Shown here piece by piece: positions 32,810-59,333 of a stretch of 64,000 bases of DNA; position 1 is the first letter of the stretch; each line of letters begins with the position of its first letter. Source of the DNA: Pseudomonadota bacterium. Its GTDB lineage: Bacteria; Bdellovibrionota; UBA1018; CAIMNF01. The stretch covers positions 1-64,000 of the forward strand of contig JAIXWV010000040.1 of NCBI GenBank assembly GCA_027491115.1, written 5' to 3'. Below the pieces are notes generated by a model. The model had not been told where the DNA came from, ran no database searches, and saw nothing but the letters and a program-made list of their open reading frames with translations. The position numbers were made by a program, and so were the translations under genes.

Positions 32810-33817
32810 TTATGCGCTCACCATAGAAACGAAATCATCCCAGTGATTTCGTAGGCGGGCTTTCAACTTCAAAATTGCTTGAGAATGAAGCTGACTCACT
32901 CTCGACTCGGTCACATCCAGAACACGCCCGATCTCTTTCAGGTTGAGATCCTCGTAATAATAGAGCGAAAGAACCAATCGCTGTTTCTCAGGCAAATCTT
33001 CAATCGCCTCGGCCACCAGCTTCTTCAGATGGGCAACGCTGACCTCACTGTAAGGAGTCGGGACCTTGCTCCCAGCCTCACCGTTCCCGTGAAGAGAACG
33101 CTTGTCAGCATTAGAAAGATTGGTGAGATCGTCATACGAAAGTAAGGATACACTCCTCACTTCGTTCAACATTTCGTGATACTGCTCAGTGCTCATTCCG
33201 AGCTCCATGCAGACTTCGTCATCAGTCGCTTGTCGACCCTTGACCTGCTCAATCTTGGCGTAAGCACGCTCGAGCACTTTGGCTTTCTCGCGAACGGAAC
33301 GGGGAACCCAGTCCTGAGAACGCAACTCATCCAGAATCGCACCACGGATCCGGAATTCGGCGTAGGTTTTGAACTTGTTGTCGCGGGATGAATCGTACTT
33401 GTCAATCGCATCCATAAGACCGATCACACCAGAACTAATCAGGTCATCGAGCTCAATATTCGAAGGCAACCGAGCCGCAATCTTTGACGCGATGAACTTG
33501 ATCAAACCCGAGTACTCGACAATCAGTTTCTCACGATTTGTATTCGTCGGAGAAAAGTCGCCCTTGACCAACTTGTTGGTATGAGCGAAATCCGCAACCA
33601 ACTCTTTTTCAAGCTCCCGTTGCAGGGCGACTTCGTTGTCGATCTTGGCTACCGCCTGATCCTTGGACTCGATCGCCTGCGCGACCTGCCCTTTTGCTTT
33701 CAGAGGCTCTTTACCAGTCTTTTTATCCGAAGAAGAAATCTCTTCCACCGGAATAGCTGGGGCGGTCTGAACGGCTTTTTTGTATTTCTGGATTGCTGAC
33801 TTCGCTGTCGTTCCCAT
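32810..33817 (-). CDS. fliA: flagellar sigma factor FliA (sigma28)
   Basis: FliA directs RNA polymerase to late flagellar promoters. The protein has region 2 (LIVEYSGLIKFIASKIA...DLISSGVIGLMDAIDKYD), region 3 and region 4 (EAIEDLPEKQRLVLSLYYYEDLNLKEIG, then TESRVSQLHSQAI). It is about 335 residues because of a lysine/glutamate-rich N-terminal extension of roughly 95 residues not found in typical 240-residue FliA. The ATG at 33817 follows GGAGAGGTG and is preferred to GTG at 33823. It is the last flagellar gene of the cluster and has its own promoter. Confidence 0.93.
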   Translation of the reverse strand: MGTTAKSAIQKYKKAVQTAPAIPVEEISSSDKKTGKEPLKAKGQVAQAIESKDQAVAKIDNEVALQRELEKELVADFAHTNKLVKGDFSPTNTNREKLIVEYSGLIKFIASKIAARLPSNIELDDLISSGVIGLMDAIDKYDSSRDNKFKTYAEFRIRGAILDELRSQDWVPRSVREKAKVLERAYAKIEQVKGRQATDDEVCMELGMSTEQYHEMLNEVRSVSLLSYDDLTNLSNADKRSLHGNGEAGSKVPTPYSEVSVAHLKKLVAEAIEDLPEKQRLVLSLYYYEDLNLKEIGRVLDVTESRVSQLHSQAILKLKARLRNHWDDFVSMVSA

Positions 33818-33849
33818 CCTCACCTCTCCATGGCAAGTTACCTAAATTC

Positions 33850-48858: not shown

Positions 48859-49328
48859 GTCCACTCCTCCTCTTGCGCCAGCGGACCGTGATTGAGGCGG
48901 GCTCGCATGGTGATCAAATCATCCAGATTCTTTTGTTCCAGGCGCGACTGCTCGAGTTTGAATTCCTCAAGGGCTTTTTCCTTCAGACGGTCAATCATCA
49001 TGCGTTCACGGCGAGCCAGGATGTAATTCCGCATCGCTTGATCGAGAAAACGTCGGGACCGGACAATCGCCTGGTCCGCACGGATCAGCTGGTGCTTCAA
49101 TCCGTCGATGTAATCTTCAAGAAGACGGATCTCATTGATACTGGAATCACGTGAAACCAGCTCGTTCTTGGAAGCGAACGAGACCTGTTTTTTATCGAGA
49201 AGTTCACGTTTGACCCGGATTTTCTCCTGGTAAACACGCTGACACAAAGAGAGCTCTTCAAGCATTTTCTGCTCTTTCTGTGTCCGGACCTTTTCGACAG
49301 CTTCAAGATGGAACTTGAATTTAGCCAT
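48855..49328 (-). CDS. fliJ: flagellar export chaperone/stalk protein FliJ
   Basis: The 157-residue protein is almost entirely coiled coil (FKFHLEAVEKVRTQKEQKMLEELS at the start), the length and character of FliJ, which sits in the centre of the FliI hexamer. It follows fliI by 55 bases and is coupled to the MotE-like gene. Confidence 0.9.
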   Translation of the reverse strand: MAKFKFHLEAVEKVRTQKEQKMLEELSLCQRVYQEKIRVKRELLDKKQVSFASKNELVSRDSSINEIRLLEDYIDGLKHQLIRADQAIVRSRRFLDQAMRNYILARRERMMIDRLKEKALEEFKLEQSRLEQKNLDDLITMRARLNHGPLAQEEEWT

Positions 49329-49383
49329 ACCTGAATATGATTTTTATCTATTGTTTAATAAATCGCCAGACTGAAAAGAATGC

Positions 49384-50757
49384 CTACTTGCGGCCCTGGC
49401 TGTGTGAGAAGGCTTCGCCTGAACGGACGATGCCATGTATGAGTCCGAGGCACTCGGCAAAATCTGCCGACTCGCCGACTCTCTGACGCAGAAAGTTCTG
49501 GATCCTGTCGTGAACCGCGATCGCCTGGTCGATCTTCGGATTGGAACCCTTGGCATAAGCGCCGATATTGATGATGTCCTCGGCCTGTTTGTAGACCGCC
49601 ATCCATTCTTTGACCTGCCCCGCCCATTGCTTGTGCTCGTCCGAGGCGATGGCACCCATCACCCTGGAGGCAGAAGCGAGGATGTCGATCGCAGGGAAAT
49701 GATTCTGCTGAGCCAGCTTGCGCGAAAGTACGATATGCCCGTCCAGAATGGAACGGGCTGCGTCTGCGATGGGCTCGTCCATATCGTCCCCGTCGACAAG
49801 AACGGTGTAAAGACCAGTGATGCTCTTTCCGTTGGAGCCGGTCCCCGCCCGCTCGAGCAGGCGTGGCAATTGGGCAAAAACACTCGGAGTGTAACCCTTG
49901 GAAGCCGGAGGCTCCCCCAGAGAAAGACCGATTTCACGCTGTGCCATACAAAACCGGGTGACGGAGTCCATCATCAGGAGTACGTCATTCCCGAGATCAC
50001 GGAAATACTCGGCGATGGTAGCGGCCAAGAAGGAAGCCCGTGTTCTGACCAGTGCGGAACTGTCCGAAGTTGCGACGATCACAACGGATCGCTTCAAACC
50101 CTCCGGACCGAGATCCCGTTCGATGAACTCTCGCACCTCGCGTCCCCGTTCCCCGATCAGGGCAATCACGTTGACATCGGCTGCAGTGTTCCTGGCCATC
50201 ATTCCGAGGAGAACCGACTTCCCTACCCCCGAGCCGGCCATGATCCCCATCCGCTGGCCCTTGCCACATGAAAGAAGTCCGTTGATGGCTCGAACCCCGA
50301 GATCCAGGGGTTCCTCGATCATGGTTCTGGAAAGTGGGTCGGTCGGTTTCCGGTAAAGAGAGCGGTGTTCGGTCTCGACTTCGGCCGAAAAAAGCGGTCC
50401 GAGTCCGTCGATGGGAGCCCCCCTTCCGTCGATGACACGACCGAGGAGGCTCATGGAAACCGGAACAGATGAGGACTTTTCCTTCAACCTCACAATGCTG
50501 TCGTTGTTGATTCCACTCACCTCGTCGAACGGCATCAGGAACACCCGCTTGTCCTTGAATCCGACGATTTCGGCCTCGATCGGTTCGGCGAAGCGATCCT
50601 GCTCGTTCAAAATCACATCACAGATGCTTCCGATACTCGCACCGGGAAGGTAAGCTTCATACAAGAGACCCAGGGTTTTGGTGATTTTCCCCGCTTCATC
50701 GTAAATCATGGCCCTGGAAAGGGCTTCTTCATAACGCTTCGGAGAAAATTCCCTCAT
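49384..50757 (-). CDS. fliI: flagellar export ATPase FliI
   Basis: The 457-residue ATPase energises flagellar export. It has an F1-beta-like core with Walker A GSGVGKSVLLG, RSVVIVATSDSSALVR, the Walker B region DVLLMMDSVTRFCMAQREIGLS, and GYTPSVFAQLPRLLERAG, all conserved in FliI. The start forms ATGA with the fliH stop. Confidence 0.97.
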   Translation of the reverse strand: MREFSPKRYEEALSRAMIYDEAGKITKTLGLLYEAYLPGASIGSICDVILNEQDRFAEPIEAEIVGFKDKRVFLMPFDEVSGINNDSIVRLKEKSSSVPVSMSLLGRVIDGRGAPIDGLGPLFSAEVETEHRSLYRKPTDPLSRTMIEEPLDLGVRAINGLLSCGKGQRMGIMAGSGVGKSVLLGMMARNTAADVNVIALIGERGREVREFIERDLGPEGLKRSVVIVATSDSSALVRTRASFLAATIAEYFRDLGNDVLLMMDSVTRFCMAQREIGLSLGEPPASKGYTPSVFAQLPRLLERAGTGSNGKSITGLYTVLVDGDDMDEPIADAARSILDGHIVLSRKLAQQNHFPAIDILASASRVMGAIASDEHKQWAGQVKEWMAVYKQAEDIINIGAYAKGSNPKIDQAIAVHDRIQNFLRQRVGESADFAECLGLIHGIVRSGEAFSHSQGRK

Positions 50758-54632: not shown

Positions 54633-55055
54633 TTATCGACCGAGTTCCAGCGCCTTGTTGGCCATCTGGGTCGCCGCTCCGATCGCGGTGACGTTCGCTT
54701 CATAAGACCGCTGTGCACTGATCATGTCCGCCATCTCCTGAACCGGATTGACATTCGGCATTTCAACATATCCGTCCGGGTTGGCGCGAGGGTCGTCCGG
54801 CTTGTACACCATCCGCGCTGGACGGGTATCTTCACGGATGTCAGTCACCAGAACCCCCTGAACCGCCTGATCGACCTTGTCGTTCAAGATCTCACCGAAG
54901 GTCTCGCGGTCCGCAGTGGCGGTGAACTCCGCATCTTTACGCTTGTATCCGACAGTCTCAGAGTTCGCGATATTCGATGAAATGGTGTTCATCCGTTTCA
55001 TTTGGGCATCGAGGCCGGTGGCACTCACCCGCATGGACGAGAAAAAATCAGCCAT
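54633..55055 (-). CDS. flgC: flagellar rod protein FlgC
   Basis: The 140-residue proximal rod protein begins FFSSMRVSATGLDAQMKRMNTISSNIAN-like, with SNIANSETVGYKRKD, and ends with the rod motif SAQRSYEANVTAIGAATQMANKALELGR. TAATG overlap with flgB. Confidence 0.97.
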   Translation of the reverse strand: MADFFSSMRVSATGLDAQMKRMNTISSNIANSETVGYKRKDAEFTATADRETFGEILNDKVDQAVQGVLVTDIREDTRPARMVYKPDDPRANPDGYVEMPNVNPVQEMADMISAQRSYEANVTAIGAATQMANKALELGR

Positions 55056-55468
55056 TATTTATTCCCTCCCCCTTCAGTGATCCCGTACTCCAGCATCCCA
55101 AGCTTCTTCCTGAGAGACTCCACTGATGCATTGTACAGAATCTGGTTTTCCTTCATCTTCGCCATTTCGGCGGAGCGATCCACCGTGTTTCCATCGAGGG
55201 ATTCTACGCCGTTTGGATCCTCGTATACATCGGCTGTCACCCCTTCCGGCCCCTTGGAACCAAAGTGGGTGGCTTCCGTGGCTTCGAGTTTCACATTTTC
55301 ATTCAGATCCATCGCATCCCGCATCGCCTGCTCGAAATTGACCGCTTTCGCCTTGTACCCAGGGGTATCGGCGTTGGCGATATTGGCCGAGATCACGTTC
55401 TGATTCTCAAGTCTGAGATTCAGATTCTGATTCAAGGCGCTGATTGTGGGATCGAAAAGACCTTTCAT
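55055..55468 (-). CDS. flgB: flagellar rod protein FlgB
   Basis: The 137-residue proximal rod protein has the conserved ENQNVISANIANADTPGYKAKAVNFEQAM stretch and the closing helix MKENQILYNASVESLRKKLGMLEYGITEGG. It follows the enhancer-binding-like regulator gene by 10 bases with a GAGGAGAACCG ribosome binding site. Confidence 0.97.
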   Translation of the reverse strand: MKGLFDPTISALNQNLNLRLENQNVISANIANADTPGYKAKAVNFEQAMRDAMDLNENVKLEATEATHFGSKGPEGVTADVYEDPNGVESLDGNTVDRSAEMAKMKENQILYNASVESLRKKLGMLEYGITEGGGNK

Positions 55469-55478
55469 TCGGTTCTCC

Positions 55479-56429
55479 TCAGGCTCGGATTCCCATGACC
55501 CGGTATTCGGCCAACTTGTTCCGGAGAGTCCGGATCGAAATGCCGAGGGCCTTAGCGGTATGGGTGCGGTTCCCTGAAAAATGCTTCAAAGCCTCGAGAA
55601 TCACATTGCGCTCGATCTCGTCGAGAGTCTTACCCGGCTTCCAAACCGATCCAGAAGCCTCTGCAGTCGGACGGCCTTCGCCGGCGGTCTGGAACTGGAT
55701 GTCCCGGGCCCGGATCTCACCCCCCTGGGCAAGAAGGACCGCCCGCTCACAGACGCCTTCGAGTTCCCGGATATTGGAAGGCCACCGGTGGGAATTCAGG
55801 AGCATGATCGCCTCTTCGGAAAGCTTGAGTCCGGGACGGGCATGGGTCTCGGACCACTTCGCCACGAAGGATTGGGCGAGGAGTTCGACATCACCGAGAC
55901 GCTCTTGGAGGTTCGGAATCTTCATGTTCACCACATTGAGACGGTGATACAGCTCCTCGCGAAACTCGCCGTTCCGCACCAGGTTGGCGACGGACCGGGA
56001 GCTGGTGGCGATGATGCGGATGTCAGCTCCGCTCTGGATCAGATCAAGGAGGCGCAACTGCACCGCAGGGGAAAGCTTCCAGATCTCGGCAAAAACGAGA
56101 GTGCTGCCACGAGCCTGCTCCACCAGAGACTGGAAAAGGATTTCCTGGTCACCGAGGGCGGTTTCACGGCAATTCATCATGAAAAAAGGACGGTTCGCAC
56201 GCGAACTGCGCTCATGGATGAACCGGGCGATGGAACGTTTTCCCGTACCGTATTCGCCAAGAATCAAAATGCTGGCTTTACTGCGGGCTACGGTCTCAGC
56301 GAGCCCCAAAACTTCGTTGTACTGACGATCGACACTCGGAAGCGCCTGCACCTTACCCGCGGACGAAACCCCCTCTTGAGGGATGATCTGGGTGCTGACA
56401 CTGGTGTTTTCACGGATTTCGTTTCTCAT
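55479..56429 (-). CDS. degenerate sigma54-activator-like AAA+ regulator without GAFTGA
   Basis: The 316-residue protein has the layout of a bacterial enhancer-binding protein: AAA+ domain with Walker A GEYGTGKRS (residues 58-66), the FREELYHRLNVVNMKIPNLQERLGDV block and a C-terminal Fis-type HTH (LDEIERNVILEALKHFSGNRTHTAKALGISIRTLRNKL). Two essential parts are missing: the GAFTGA loop that contacts sigma54 is deleted (the chain goes from EILFQSLVEQ straight to ARGSTLVF), and Walker B reads LVFAEI instead of LFLDEI. So it probably binds DNA but is not expected to open sigma54 promoters. It lacks a receiver domain. The ATG at 56429 follows AAGGAGG; it overlaps the upstream TPR gene by 20 bases and lies just before flgB. 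Confidence 0.85.
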   Translation of the reverse strand: MRNEIRENTSVSTQIIPQEGVSSAGKVQALPSVDRQYNEVLGLAETVARSKASILILGEYGTGKRSIARFIHERSSRANRPFFMMNCRETALGDQEILFQSLVEQARGSTLVFAEIWKLSPAVQLRLLDLIQSGADIRIIATSSRSVANLVRNGEFREELYHRLNVVNMKIPNLQERLGDVELLAQSFVAKWSETHARPGLKLSEEAIMLLNSHRWPSNIRELEGVCERAVLLAQGGEIRARDIQFQTAGEGRPTAEASGSVWKPGKTLDEIERNVILEALKHFSGNRTHTAKALGISIRTLRNKLAEYRVMGIRA

Positions 56430-59160
56430 CGACTTTGCCCTCCTTGGCAATTTCACTTAGCGTATCCTTCGCTAATTTTTTCCAAACATCATCTTCCTGA
56501 CTCTGTTGAATTTTTTCGAGTGAGCGGCTGGCTGCGATCCTGGAATCTTTTCCCCCGTCTTTCAGGAGAGCTCGGGCATGCGTGTAAAGCACCCGATTTC
56601 CCCCGATTTTATTTTCACTGGCTTCGGAGTAAAGCGCAACCGCTTCTTTCCATTTTTCCTGTTTTTCTAGGGTTTCTCCAAGCTGAAGCACAAAGTACGC
56701 CAACGACGGAAGAGCTCCGAGGTGCTTGATCCCGAGGGATCCGGTATCCGTCGCCCCTACCTGCTCCCTGAGCTTCTTTCCTGCTCTATAGGCTTTCTCA
56801 GCGAATTCAAGGTCCTGCGCCTCTAGAGCCACATCGCCCGCCCAACCGAGGATCCTGCACCGGTCTGCTTTTCCGAGTCCTGATGATGCCCCCACCACTT
56901 TTACAGCAAGGATCCCAGCCTTAGCGGGATCTTTCCTTTTCCAATTCAAAAGCCCCAAAATGAGGTCCCGCTCGAGTGCATACTTCGACCCATCCCGAAC
57001 AAACGCCAACCTTCCAGTCAAATACTCGACCGCCTTGGCGTCCTCCACTTGGAATTCCGGACTGTTCCATAAAGTCTTCGCTTCAATCAGACTACGGGAC
57101 TCCTGATCCTCAGCCCCTTCGAGCGTCAATCGTTTTTCGATCGCCGCAATCACTTCACGCTGGCTGGCCTCGTTCATCAATCGGAACGGTTCGATGATTT
57201 TCTTGGCCAGCGTGGTGAGATTCCGCTCCGCTGCGAACGCTGCGATCTTCATCTTGAGCTCGTCAGCCAAAGGATCGTGAGCCGGCAGAGGAAGAAAGTC
57301 ACCATACTTCTCATACAAAGCAATGGCCCCGAACGGGTCGTTCACAGCTACTTTCTTCTCGATCAGGTTCTTGATCCCCCCGATCATCGCTTGCTCGATC
57401 ATTTTCCGGGCCTCAACACCTGGATTAGCCCTCAAATGTTCAAGCGCTTTCTCTACAGCTTTCAAATCCTCATGGAACGAGATCAACATCCTGACTTCGG
57501 TCAGTGCGACTAGGTCCCGGAACGGTCCGTCGTAAACAGCCCCCTCACCGGAGAAATTCTTCACCTCGGGAGATGCGATGAACCGCTCTGCAGCAGGAAG
57601 ATCAAAACCACCATGACTTCCGCAGGGCAGAAGGCGAAGCCGCGCCACCAGGGCTCCGGGAGACAACGGATACTGATTGATGGTGCCAATCAGAGCCGAC
57701 TCCGCCTTGGAGTTCACGTTCTCATTCATCGCAGTCACTTCAGCAACACGGAGACTCGCTTTCCATGCAGAGGGCTGGTTCCGAGCGATATCGATAAACC
57801 GTTTATACGCCACCACCGAGCGCTGCGATTCTTCGAGCTGGAAGTAACTCTCACCCAGGTTCAGGAGAACAAGCGGATAGTGAGCCAAATCCTTTTCGTG
57901 CTTTCGCAACGCCGCCTCATATGAAATAGCCGCCTGCGCGTACTGCCCCCGCTCAAAGTGTGCATCTCCAGCCTTGAAAGCGGCCTCTGCCCGGATTTCA
58001 GGCTTGGGCGCATTCTGAGAAAGCCACTGATACTCCTCGATCGCCTGATCGGACTGACGAATCTGATACAGGCATTCAGCGATCCCGTAACGGAACAGCC
58101 AGACCAATGGATGTTTCGGCATCTCCTTCTTGAGCGCGAGGAAACTCTCGAGCGCAGAGAGCCATTCCTTCTTCTGAAAGCTCTGGGCTGCAATGAAGCC
58201 GGATGCCTGGAGCCCGACTTCGGTGCCCCGTGCCCGTTTGGCAATCTCGCGAATCAATTCACGCCCTTGGTCTTCCAATCCCAGCCTGAAATAGGCATTA
58301 GCCTTCAAAAAGGCCATTTCATTTCGATATCGAGACTTCGGATACTGCTTGTCAAGAAAATCGACCGTCCTAATGGAGAGTGCGTGCTGGTTCTCGCGAC
58401 TCAACTTGAGCGCGAGCCGGATCATGTCAAGCTCCTCACCGGACCCTTTAGGCTCTGGATACTCGTACCGATGATCCGGGATTTTTTCAGGGAAATAATT
58501 GGAAAGATCCAAGGTGGGATGCTCGGCCCGGAATCTCAAAAACACCGTACTTTGCCGGTTGAATGGACGCTCGCAAAACAAAAGTGCATTTCTACCGTCT
58601 TCGATTCGCTTCCGCTTGCTCTCTTTCTTCTCGGACTCCCTGCGCCGAATGGCTTCCCTCTCGGCCTGAATGCGGGCCAATTCACGCGCTCTCGCCTCAC
58701 GAGCCACATCGCTTCGGGTGGGACCCTTTCGATAGAAGAAATCGACAATGAACTTTCCTTGGTCGTCTCTGCGAAAATCAAAATATTCCATCGCCGGGCT
58801 CGCCAGAGCATTCGGCCCAGTAGGAAAACGGTACTTACCCTCAAGCACCAGAGAGTTCTCTTTTTCCTGGACCTTGAGTTGTACGAGACGCTCGTCAGAG
58901 AGCCCCTTTAGAAAGGAATTGAACCGTTCCTCTGCGCCGAACGGGACACCCAAATCCATGAGTGTTGCCGCCGGAATGACAATCCTGAATCCACCCGTTG
59001 CACTCTCGAACTTAGGACGAAAAGATTCATCGAGAGCGATCTTGAGACGGGAATAGGAAGCCTGAGTCGCCAACTCGACCGATCCGTCGAACTCCATGGC
59101 GAAACACAGCACGGGCGCGAAGAGCGCGCCGAGACCGATCCAAACCCTGTGTGGCTTCAT
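56410..59160 (-). CDS. large secreted TPR-repeat protein at the head of the flagellar operon
   Basis: I cannot name this 916-residue protein. It has a signal peptide (MKPHRVWIGLGALFAPVLCFA), an N-terminal beta-rich region of about 150 residues (RLKIALDESFRPKFES...FRIVIPAATL) recalling AMIN-type domains, a very charged Arg/Glu segment (RARELARIQAEREAIRRRE), and then a long series of TPR/SLR helical pairs (for example AFKAGDAHFERGQYAQAAISYEAAL). This layout recalls epsilonproteobacterial PflA, a periplasmic flagellar-disk protein, but that is by architecture only. The ATG at 59160 begins the signal peptide; 44 residues upstream in frame are not protein-like. It overlaps the regulator gene, so it heads the minus-strand flagellar transcript. 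Confidence 0.7.
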   Translation of the reverse strand: MKPHRVWIGLGALFAPVLCFAMEFDGSVELATQASYSRLKIALDESFRPKFESATGGFRIVIPAATLMDLGVPFGAEERFNSFLKGLSDERLVQLKVQEKENSLVLEGKYRFPTGPNALASPAMEYFDFRRDDQGKFIVDFFYRKGPTRSDVAREARARELARIQAEREAIRRRESEKKESKRKRIEDGRNALLFCERPFNRQSTVFLRFRAEHPTLDLSNYFPEKIPDHRYEYPEPKGSGEELDMIRLALKLSRENQHALSIRTVDFLDKQYPKSRYRNEMAFLKANAYFRLGLEDQGRELIREIAKRARGTEVGLQASGFIAAQSFQKKEWLSALESFLALKKEMPKHPLVWLFRYGIAECLYQIRQSDQAIEEYQWLSQNAPKPEIRAEAAFKAGDAHFERGQYAQAAISYEAALRKHEKDLAHYPLVLLNLGESYFQLEESQRSVVAYKRFIDIARNQPSAWKASLRVAEVTAMNENVNSKAESALIGTINQYPLSPGALVARLRLLPCGSHGGFDLPAAERFIASPEVKNFSGEGAVYDGPFRDLVALTEVRMLISFHEDLKAVEKALEHLRANPGVEARKMIEQAMIGGIKNLIEKKVAVNDPFGAIALYEKYGDFLPLPAHDPLADELKMKIAAFAAERNLTTLAKKIIEPFRLMNEASQREVIAAIEKRLTLEGAEDQESRSLIEAKTLWNSPEFQVEDAKAVEYLTGRLAFVRDGSKYALERDLILGLLNWKRKDPAKAGILAVKVVGASSGLGKADRCRILGWAGDVALEAQDLEFAEKAYRAGKKLREQVGATDTGSLGIKHLGALPSLAYFVLQLGETLEKQEKWKEAVALYSEASENKIGGNRVLYTHARALLKDGGKDSRIAASRSLEKIQQSQEDDVWKKLAKDTLSEIAKEGKVDEKRNP

Positions 59161-59228
59161 GATTCTGCTCACCGTACCGATCACTCCCTTCCTAGTCGTG
59201 AATTGCCCAGGTACTTGTTTCCTATTGT

Positions 59229-59241
59229 GGCAGAATCTGCC
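59229..59241. promoter_or_regulatory. palindrome between flagellar and mla operons
   Basis: GGCAGAATCTGCC has two perfect 6-base arms around a single central A. It lies in the 173-base divergent gap, about 69 bases before the TPR gene start and 93 bases before the mla lipoprotein start. It is a plausible operator; the regulator is unknown. Confidence 0.35.
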
Positions 59242-59333
59242 TCCCGGTCGCAATCTAGATTCAGGAAGTTTCTCAATTTTTCTTTTTTTCACTTTCCATT
59301 TCCAGGCCCATTATCCTACGATCATGTAAACAC

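Follow-up and report, generated by a model that had tools for sequence, protein, structure and literature searches.

A flagellar enhancer-binding-type regulator lacking its sigma54-facing loops in a Bdellovibrionales family, and its probable conversion to a sigma70-level regulator

Enhancer-binding proteins that work without sigma54 are known singly, and a joint switch of polymerase by a regulator together with its promoters is rarely visible. The NtrC proteins of Rhodobacter capsulatus and Caulobacter are without the L1/GAFTGA segment and work at sigma70 promoters (PMC10274813); the R. capsulatus protein is reported in the same paper to require ATP binding, not hydrolysis. TyrR, DhaR, HupR and VpsR are GAFTGA-defective descendants of enhancer-binding proteins and are taken as sigma70-dependent, and YplP is also discussed among the proteins with a defective GAFTGA (PMC3162934). 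Among flagellar regulators, FleQ of Pseudomonas aeruginosa can also regulate sigma70 promoters, which it does without hydrolysing ATP, and its box at pel covers the start site (PMC10723142). FlbD of Caulobacter crescentus represses the fliF promoter and activates others (PMC3096577). A text search of the literature, which covered few subscription papers, found no GAFTGA-less regulator of a flagellar operon.

The gene described here (REG) is located on the minus strand of a 64,000-nucleotide stretch (the window) of a 2.5 Mb draft genome, at positions 55,479-56,429 including the stop codon (55,482-56,429 without it), and encodes an enhancer-binding-type regulator of 316 aa; a GTG at 56,456 lies likewise in the open frame and is an alternative start. 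The Pfam search identified a sigma54-activator AAA+ domain, an AAA lid and a Fis-type HTH, a PspF-shaped protein without receiver, and no N-terminal sensor domain. The AAA+ fold, Walker A and HTH (Pfam, PDB and fold matches) indicate shared ancestry with sigma54 enhancer-binding activators. The top PDB match was ZraR; the closest curated model was FlbD (241 bits, cut-off 750), and the TyrR model reached 142 bits (cut-off 576). An AlphaFold model built on a shallow five-row alignment had a pTM of just 0.47, with pLDDT values in the AAA+ core of about 75-93.

The preliminary description of this DNA had noted that REG lacks GAFTGA and the Walker B Asp but keeps Walker A and the HTH, and alignment with GAFTGA-bearing orthologues bears this out. 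The GAFTGA (L1) stretch LFGYERGAFTGAVSSKAG of the orthologues is cut down to F...QS, and Walker B reads VFAE in place of LLLDE; Walker A is kept as GEYGTGKR including its Lys, as are both arginine-finger positions (FREELYHR), the sensor II Arg (NIREL) and the Fis-type HTH. Two further changes had been missed, namely deletion of the second sigma54-facing loop (L2, the pre-sensor-I loop; GEVDRIGGRKP) and replacement of the sensor I Asn (ATTN to ATSS).

The comparison covered 55 genomes of the order, including 13 of the same family (f1; G000-G012, twelve of one genus and one of another); the public records nearly identical to the genome studied are MAGs, and no cultured f1 member came to light. 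None of the 13 f1 genomes encodes GAFTGA or the Walker B Asp in this protein, the position of the Asp being occupied by Ala, Thr, Ile, Leu, Val or Ser. In 12 of them L2 has been shortened or lost altogether, and G006 retains a divergent stretch. Since these are independent assemblies, the losses are due neither to chance nor to base calling, and a sequencing or assembly error, for which a check of the reads had been proposed, is excluded. Syntenic orthologues outside f1 carry GAFTGA or GSFTGA, with family f3 and G029 as the exceptions. Orthologues of that kind had been named in advance as grounds for refutation; they exist, but in other families, which places the loss as derived in f1. In the tree the f1 proteins group together as one fully supported clade, consistent with one loss event in the common ancestor of this Bdellovibrionales family.

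In f3 (G014, G019, G021, G023) the loop reads GAFAGT, with DN or DD in Walker B and changed finger residues in those shown, and in G029 it reads DAFAGA; the -24/-12 site upstream of the operon is still there in both, despite the partly eroded loop. These orthologues are possible intermediate states.

REG is preceded by a gene for a TPR-type protein (TPR; 56,410-59,172, minus strand), which has conserved synteny among relatives, overlaps the start of REG and is the first gene of the operon; its GTG start at 59,172 was picked from the ribosome-binding site, and the frame is open up to 59,292. REG is followed by flgB (55,055-55,468, minus strand), flgC, fliE, fliF, fliG, fliH and fliI, and the block extends to flhA, flhF and fliA. 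The order mlaF-mlaE-o56/TPR-REG-flgB is conserved in relatives. The REG-flgB gap is about 10 bp in the window and closed in f1, versus mostly 65-300 bp in GAFTGA-bearing relatives; short gaps outside f1 (4-15 bp) are present in G013, G050 and G051.

Upstream of TPR, a -24/-12 site (e.g. TGGCACCTGGCTTGCT) is present in 29 of 30 non-f1 genomes having the region, versus none of 12 in f1 (Fisher test, 1e-9, but f1 is one clade and the loss hence a single event). G015 has GAFTGA, yet lacks -24/-12 at TPR. The window has instead a putative -35 element (TTGCGA, 59,248-59,253), conserved as TTGnnn in 10 of 12 f1 genomes, and a putative -10 element (CACAAT, 59,224-59,229, with TGC in front of it), both on the minus strand and separated by an 18-bp spacer. 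This is a weak sigma70 match, with no hit by a simple consensus scan, though the elements and their geometry with the operator are conserved.

Two other features of this region were observed. In the TPR leader (59,158-59,220), a conserved AATTCACGACTAGGAAGGGAGTGATCGGTAC carries GTACC/GGTAC arms on either side of the ribosome-binding site, a possible hairpin judging from the sequence. Non-f1 genomes have, some 105-220 bp upstream of the -24 element of TPR, a second conserved element resembling TTTTCTGACGGAGGGTCAAAA, which is close to the divergent o56 gene and contains AAACCGT/AAACTGT repeats.

The operator was modelled by expectation-maximization (EM) trained solely on non-f1 sequence, with the f1 sequences and the flgF locus left out. 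An earlier run with a free number of sites gave low information and was superseded by a second, in which most starts yielded the palindrome ncGGcAaaattTgCCgn (log-likelihood 516 versus 43-98 for shuffles) and two of ten ended on other patterns. The string CGGCAGA is enriched upstream of the -24 element in the sister family f2 (14 observed, 0.3 expected) and within the REG-flgB gap (8 observed, 0.5 expected). The ancestral palindrome that REG is predicted to bind is cGGcAaaattTgCCg.

At TPR, the predicted operator in the window is GGCAGATTCTGCC (59,229-59,241, minus strand), a perfect inverted repeat around a central T. The best site upstream of TPR in most f1 genomes is GGCAGATTCTGCC, GGAAAATTCTGCC or a near form, with p-values of 0.0025-0.04 per genome that are not independent, because the members of f1 are related; the association of protein and promoter is likewise one event. 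All 12 aligned f1 sequences share an unchanged TCTGCCA, and in ten of these a TTGnnn-N18-CACAAT pattern encloses the operator match, which has its centre at -19 relative to the inferred start; this match is the best in nine of the ten and second best in G003. A clear match at TPR is missing in G012. A genome-wide search gave 11 matches versus 6 in the control, barely higher, and we therefore do not claim a wide REG regulon. The top-scoring site in the window (PWM score 20.0) is an operator-like palindrome, TCGGCAAAATCTGCCGA (49,454-49,470, plus strand); it lies 143 bp ahead of fliJ, within the 3' end of fliI, and is partly conserved in relatives. Before fliJ (about 49,270-49,340) there is also a TTCAGTCT block, found in nearly all genomes having the fliI-fliJ gap, whether or not they have -24/-12 at TPR.

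The second locus, flgFG, lies on another contig than the REG window and was independent of operator training. A sigma54-like site scoring at least 18 is present upstream of flgF in 13 of 16 non-f1 genomes, mostly as [CT]GGCAYGCCGATTGCT and often with operator matches above it, versus none of 13 in f1 (best score 17.3). TTGCAn-N18-TAnAAT is found at flgF in 10 of the 13 f1 genomes and in none of 16 others. Operator matches (predicted REG operator, CCGGCAAATCCTACCGG) are present in nine f1 genomes (p 0.001-0.03) and absent in four; five genomes have the operator at about -74, and two have it at -85 and -91.

The -24/-12 sites are thus lost at two loci at which the operator has mostly persisted. 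We consider it probable that REG changed, in one ancestral conversion, from a sigma54 activator to a regulator working at the sigma70 level, with repression of its own operon and perhaps activation of flgFG. Its ancestor would have been an FlbD-like enhancer-binding activator of the flagellar operon, already without receiver; in the ancestor of f1, with the Walker B Asp and the loops that face sigma54 gone, it would have become a sequence-specific regulator of sigma70-type promoters. We infer from sequence comparison that REG still binds the ancestral palindrome, that sigma70 is used and which sign the regulation has: in front of TPR-REG-flgB the operator is inside the core promoter, and binding of REG at -19 should block the polymerase and give autorepression, comparable to the repression of fliF by FlbD and to the action of FleQ at pel; at flgFG, the site at about -74 would suit activation by contact, or looping. 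ATP may still bind, as in R. capsulatus NtrC. The preliminary interpretation is partly supported. Its central suggestion, that REG represses or regulates at the level of sigma70 in the manner of TyrR or R. capsulatus NtrC, is supported by the loss of sigma54 sites at both target promoters checked, by the kept operator and by the conserved sigma70-like elements now at it. The other suggestion, a nucleotide sensor, may fit the kept Walker A and arginine fingers, but no feature points to sensing. For the broader proposal, that a whole level of flagellar regulation moved from sigma54 to sigma70, with loops and -24/-12 sites lost jointly and operators reused for core-promoter repression and activation from -74, we regard the chances as even.

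The new f1 promoters may be read by sigma28 (FliA) rather than sigma70, with REG placed within a FliA-led hierarchy. The gene fliA is inside the flagellar gene block, at its far end (32,810-33,823, minus strand; TIGR02479, 272 bits), and FliA drives most attack-phase promoters in Bdellovibrio bacteriovorus (PMC3627812). The Bdellovibrio FliA consensus from the same study, TTAAG-N16-CCGATA, was however absent from those TPR upstream sequences that were inspected, a relaxed FliA pattern was not found at flgF in f1, and FliA-type CCGATA occurs upstream of three flagellin genes; we consider this explanation unlikely. The 2.5 Mb genome contains eight flagellin genes (G000:C4, C16, C27, C39, C44; L146-L153), at which no sigma54 sites were seen and no operator scored above 11.1.

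A position between -35 and -10 could also suggest that REG activates in a MerR-like manner, by remodelling the 18-bp spacer, instead of repressing. The operator centre at -19 within that spacer and the weak hexamers agree with this, but a spacer of 18 bp is not unusual, the HTH belongs to the Fis type and nothing MerR-like was seen in its anatomy, so that MerR-like action appears slightly less probable again than reading by sigma28.

Loss of sigma54 from the organism is rejected, as rpoN and perfect -24/-12 sites (18 versus 0 in the reversed control) are present in REG's own genome, together with at least ten enhancer-binding paralogues with GAFTGA or GSFTGA. Of the search proposed for rpoN and a complete flagellar activator, the first was thus found and the second was not. 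Genes recognised by eye after the perfect sites were lpxC, hsp20 and a secretion gene, with several of no recognised function; no flagellar gene was recognised behind any of the 18. Three more paralogues lack GAFTGA (G000:C28:5350-6207, G000:C36:82859-83251 and G000:C30:15788-16276; L014, L015, L012): the loop is deleted in two of them, of 330 aa and 308 aa, and the third bears a receiver and reads GASPVN.

The intact paralogues and rpoN, and the ring-contact parts kept in REG (Walker A, fingers, sensor II Arg), would allow REG to mix as a loop-less subunit with an intact paralogue and modulate it, remaining in the service of sigma54 as a brake. Both flagellar promoters checked are without a sigma54 site, so that no flagellar sigma54 promoter is left to brake, and the HTH of REG is more conserved than its AAA+ part (HTH identity, 86% within f1 and 76% to f2; AAA+ identity, 48% within f1 versus 86% within f2); such a brake is improbable. 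DNA binding seems to have been retained and the motor released.

The REG frame is open in 13 of 13 f1 genomes, and whole-gene dN/dS for five f1 pairs was 0.025, 0.040, 0.019, 0.062 and 0.074, figures that are rough because synonymous sites are at or near saturation. Judged by these ratios, REG is under purifying selection and is no dying gene. That it is a drifting relic and a regulator no more, as its much faster AAA+ divergence in f1 might suggest, is very improbable given the low dN/dS, the open frames, the nearly unchanged HTH and the kept operator.

If sigma70-level regulation by REG holds, both sides of a polymerase switch, regulator and promoters, are readable in one bacterial order with intact relatives at the same locus, and the possible intermediates (GAFAGT or DAFAGA with -24/-12) and defined operator positions are also available for comparison. 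The known GAFTGA-less proteins differ from REG in several respects. NtrC of R. capsulatus and Caulobacter are receiver-bearing response regulators of nitrogen control, whereas REG is flagellar and has no receiver; Caulobacter NtrC moreover retains and requires the Walker B Asp, which REG has lost. TyrR, DhaR, HupR and VpsR differ in their signals and N-terminal domains and do not regulate a flagellar operon. FleQ is, like REG, a flagellar regulator, but keeps GAFTGA and a sigma54 flagellar role and differs also in its partners, FleN and c-di-GMP. FlbD, the nearest curated model and likewise flagellar, has GAFTGA (PMC10274813) and works with sigma54, whereas REG is without GAFTGA and leaves the N-terminal third of the 454-position FlbD model unmatched.
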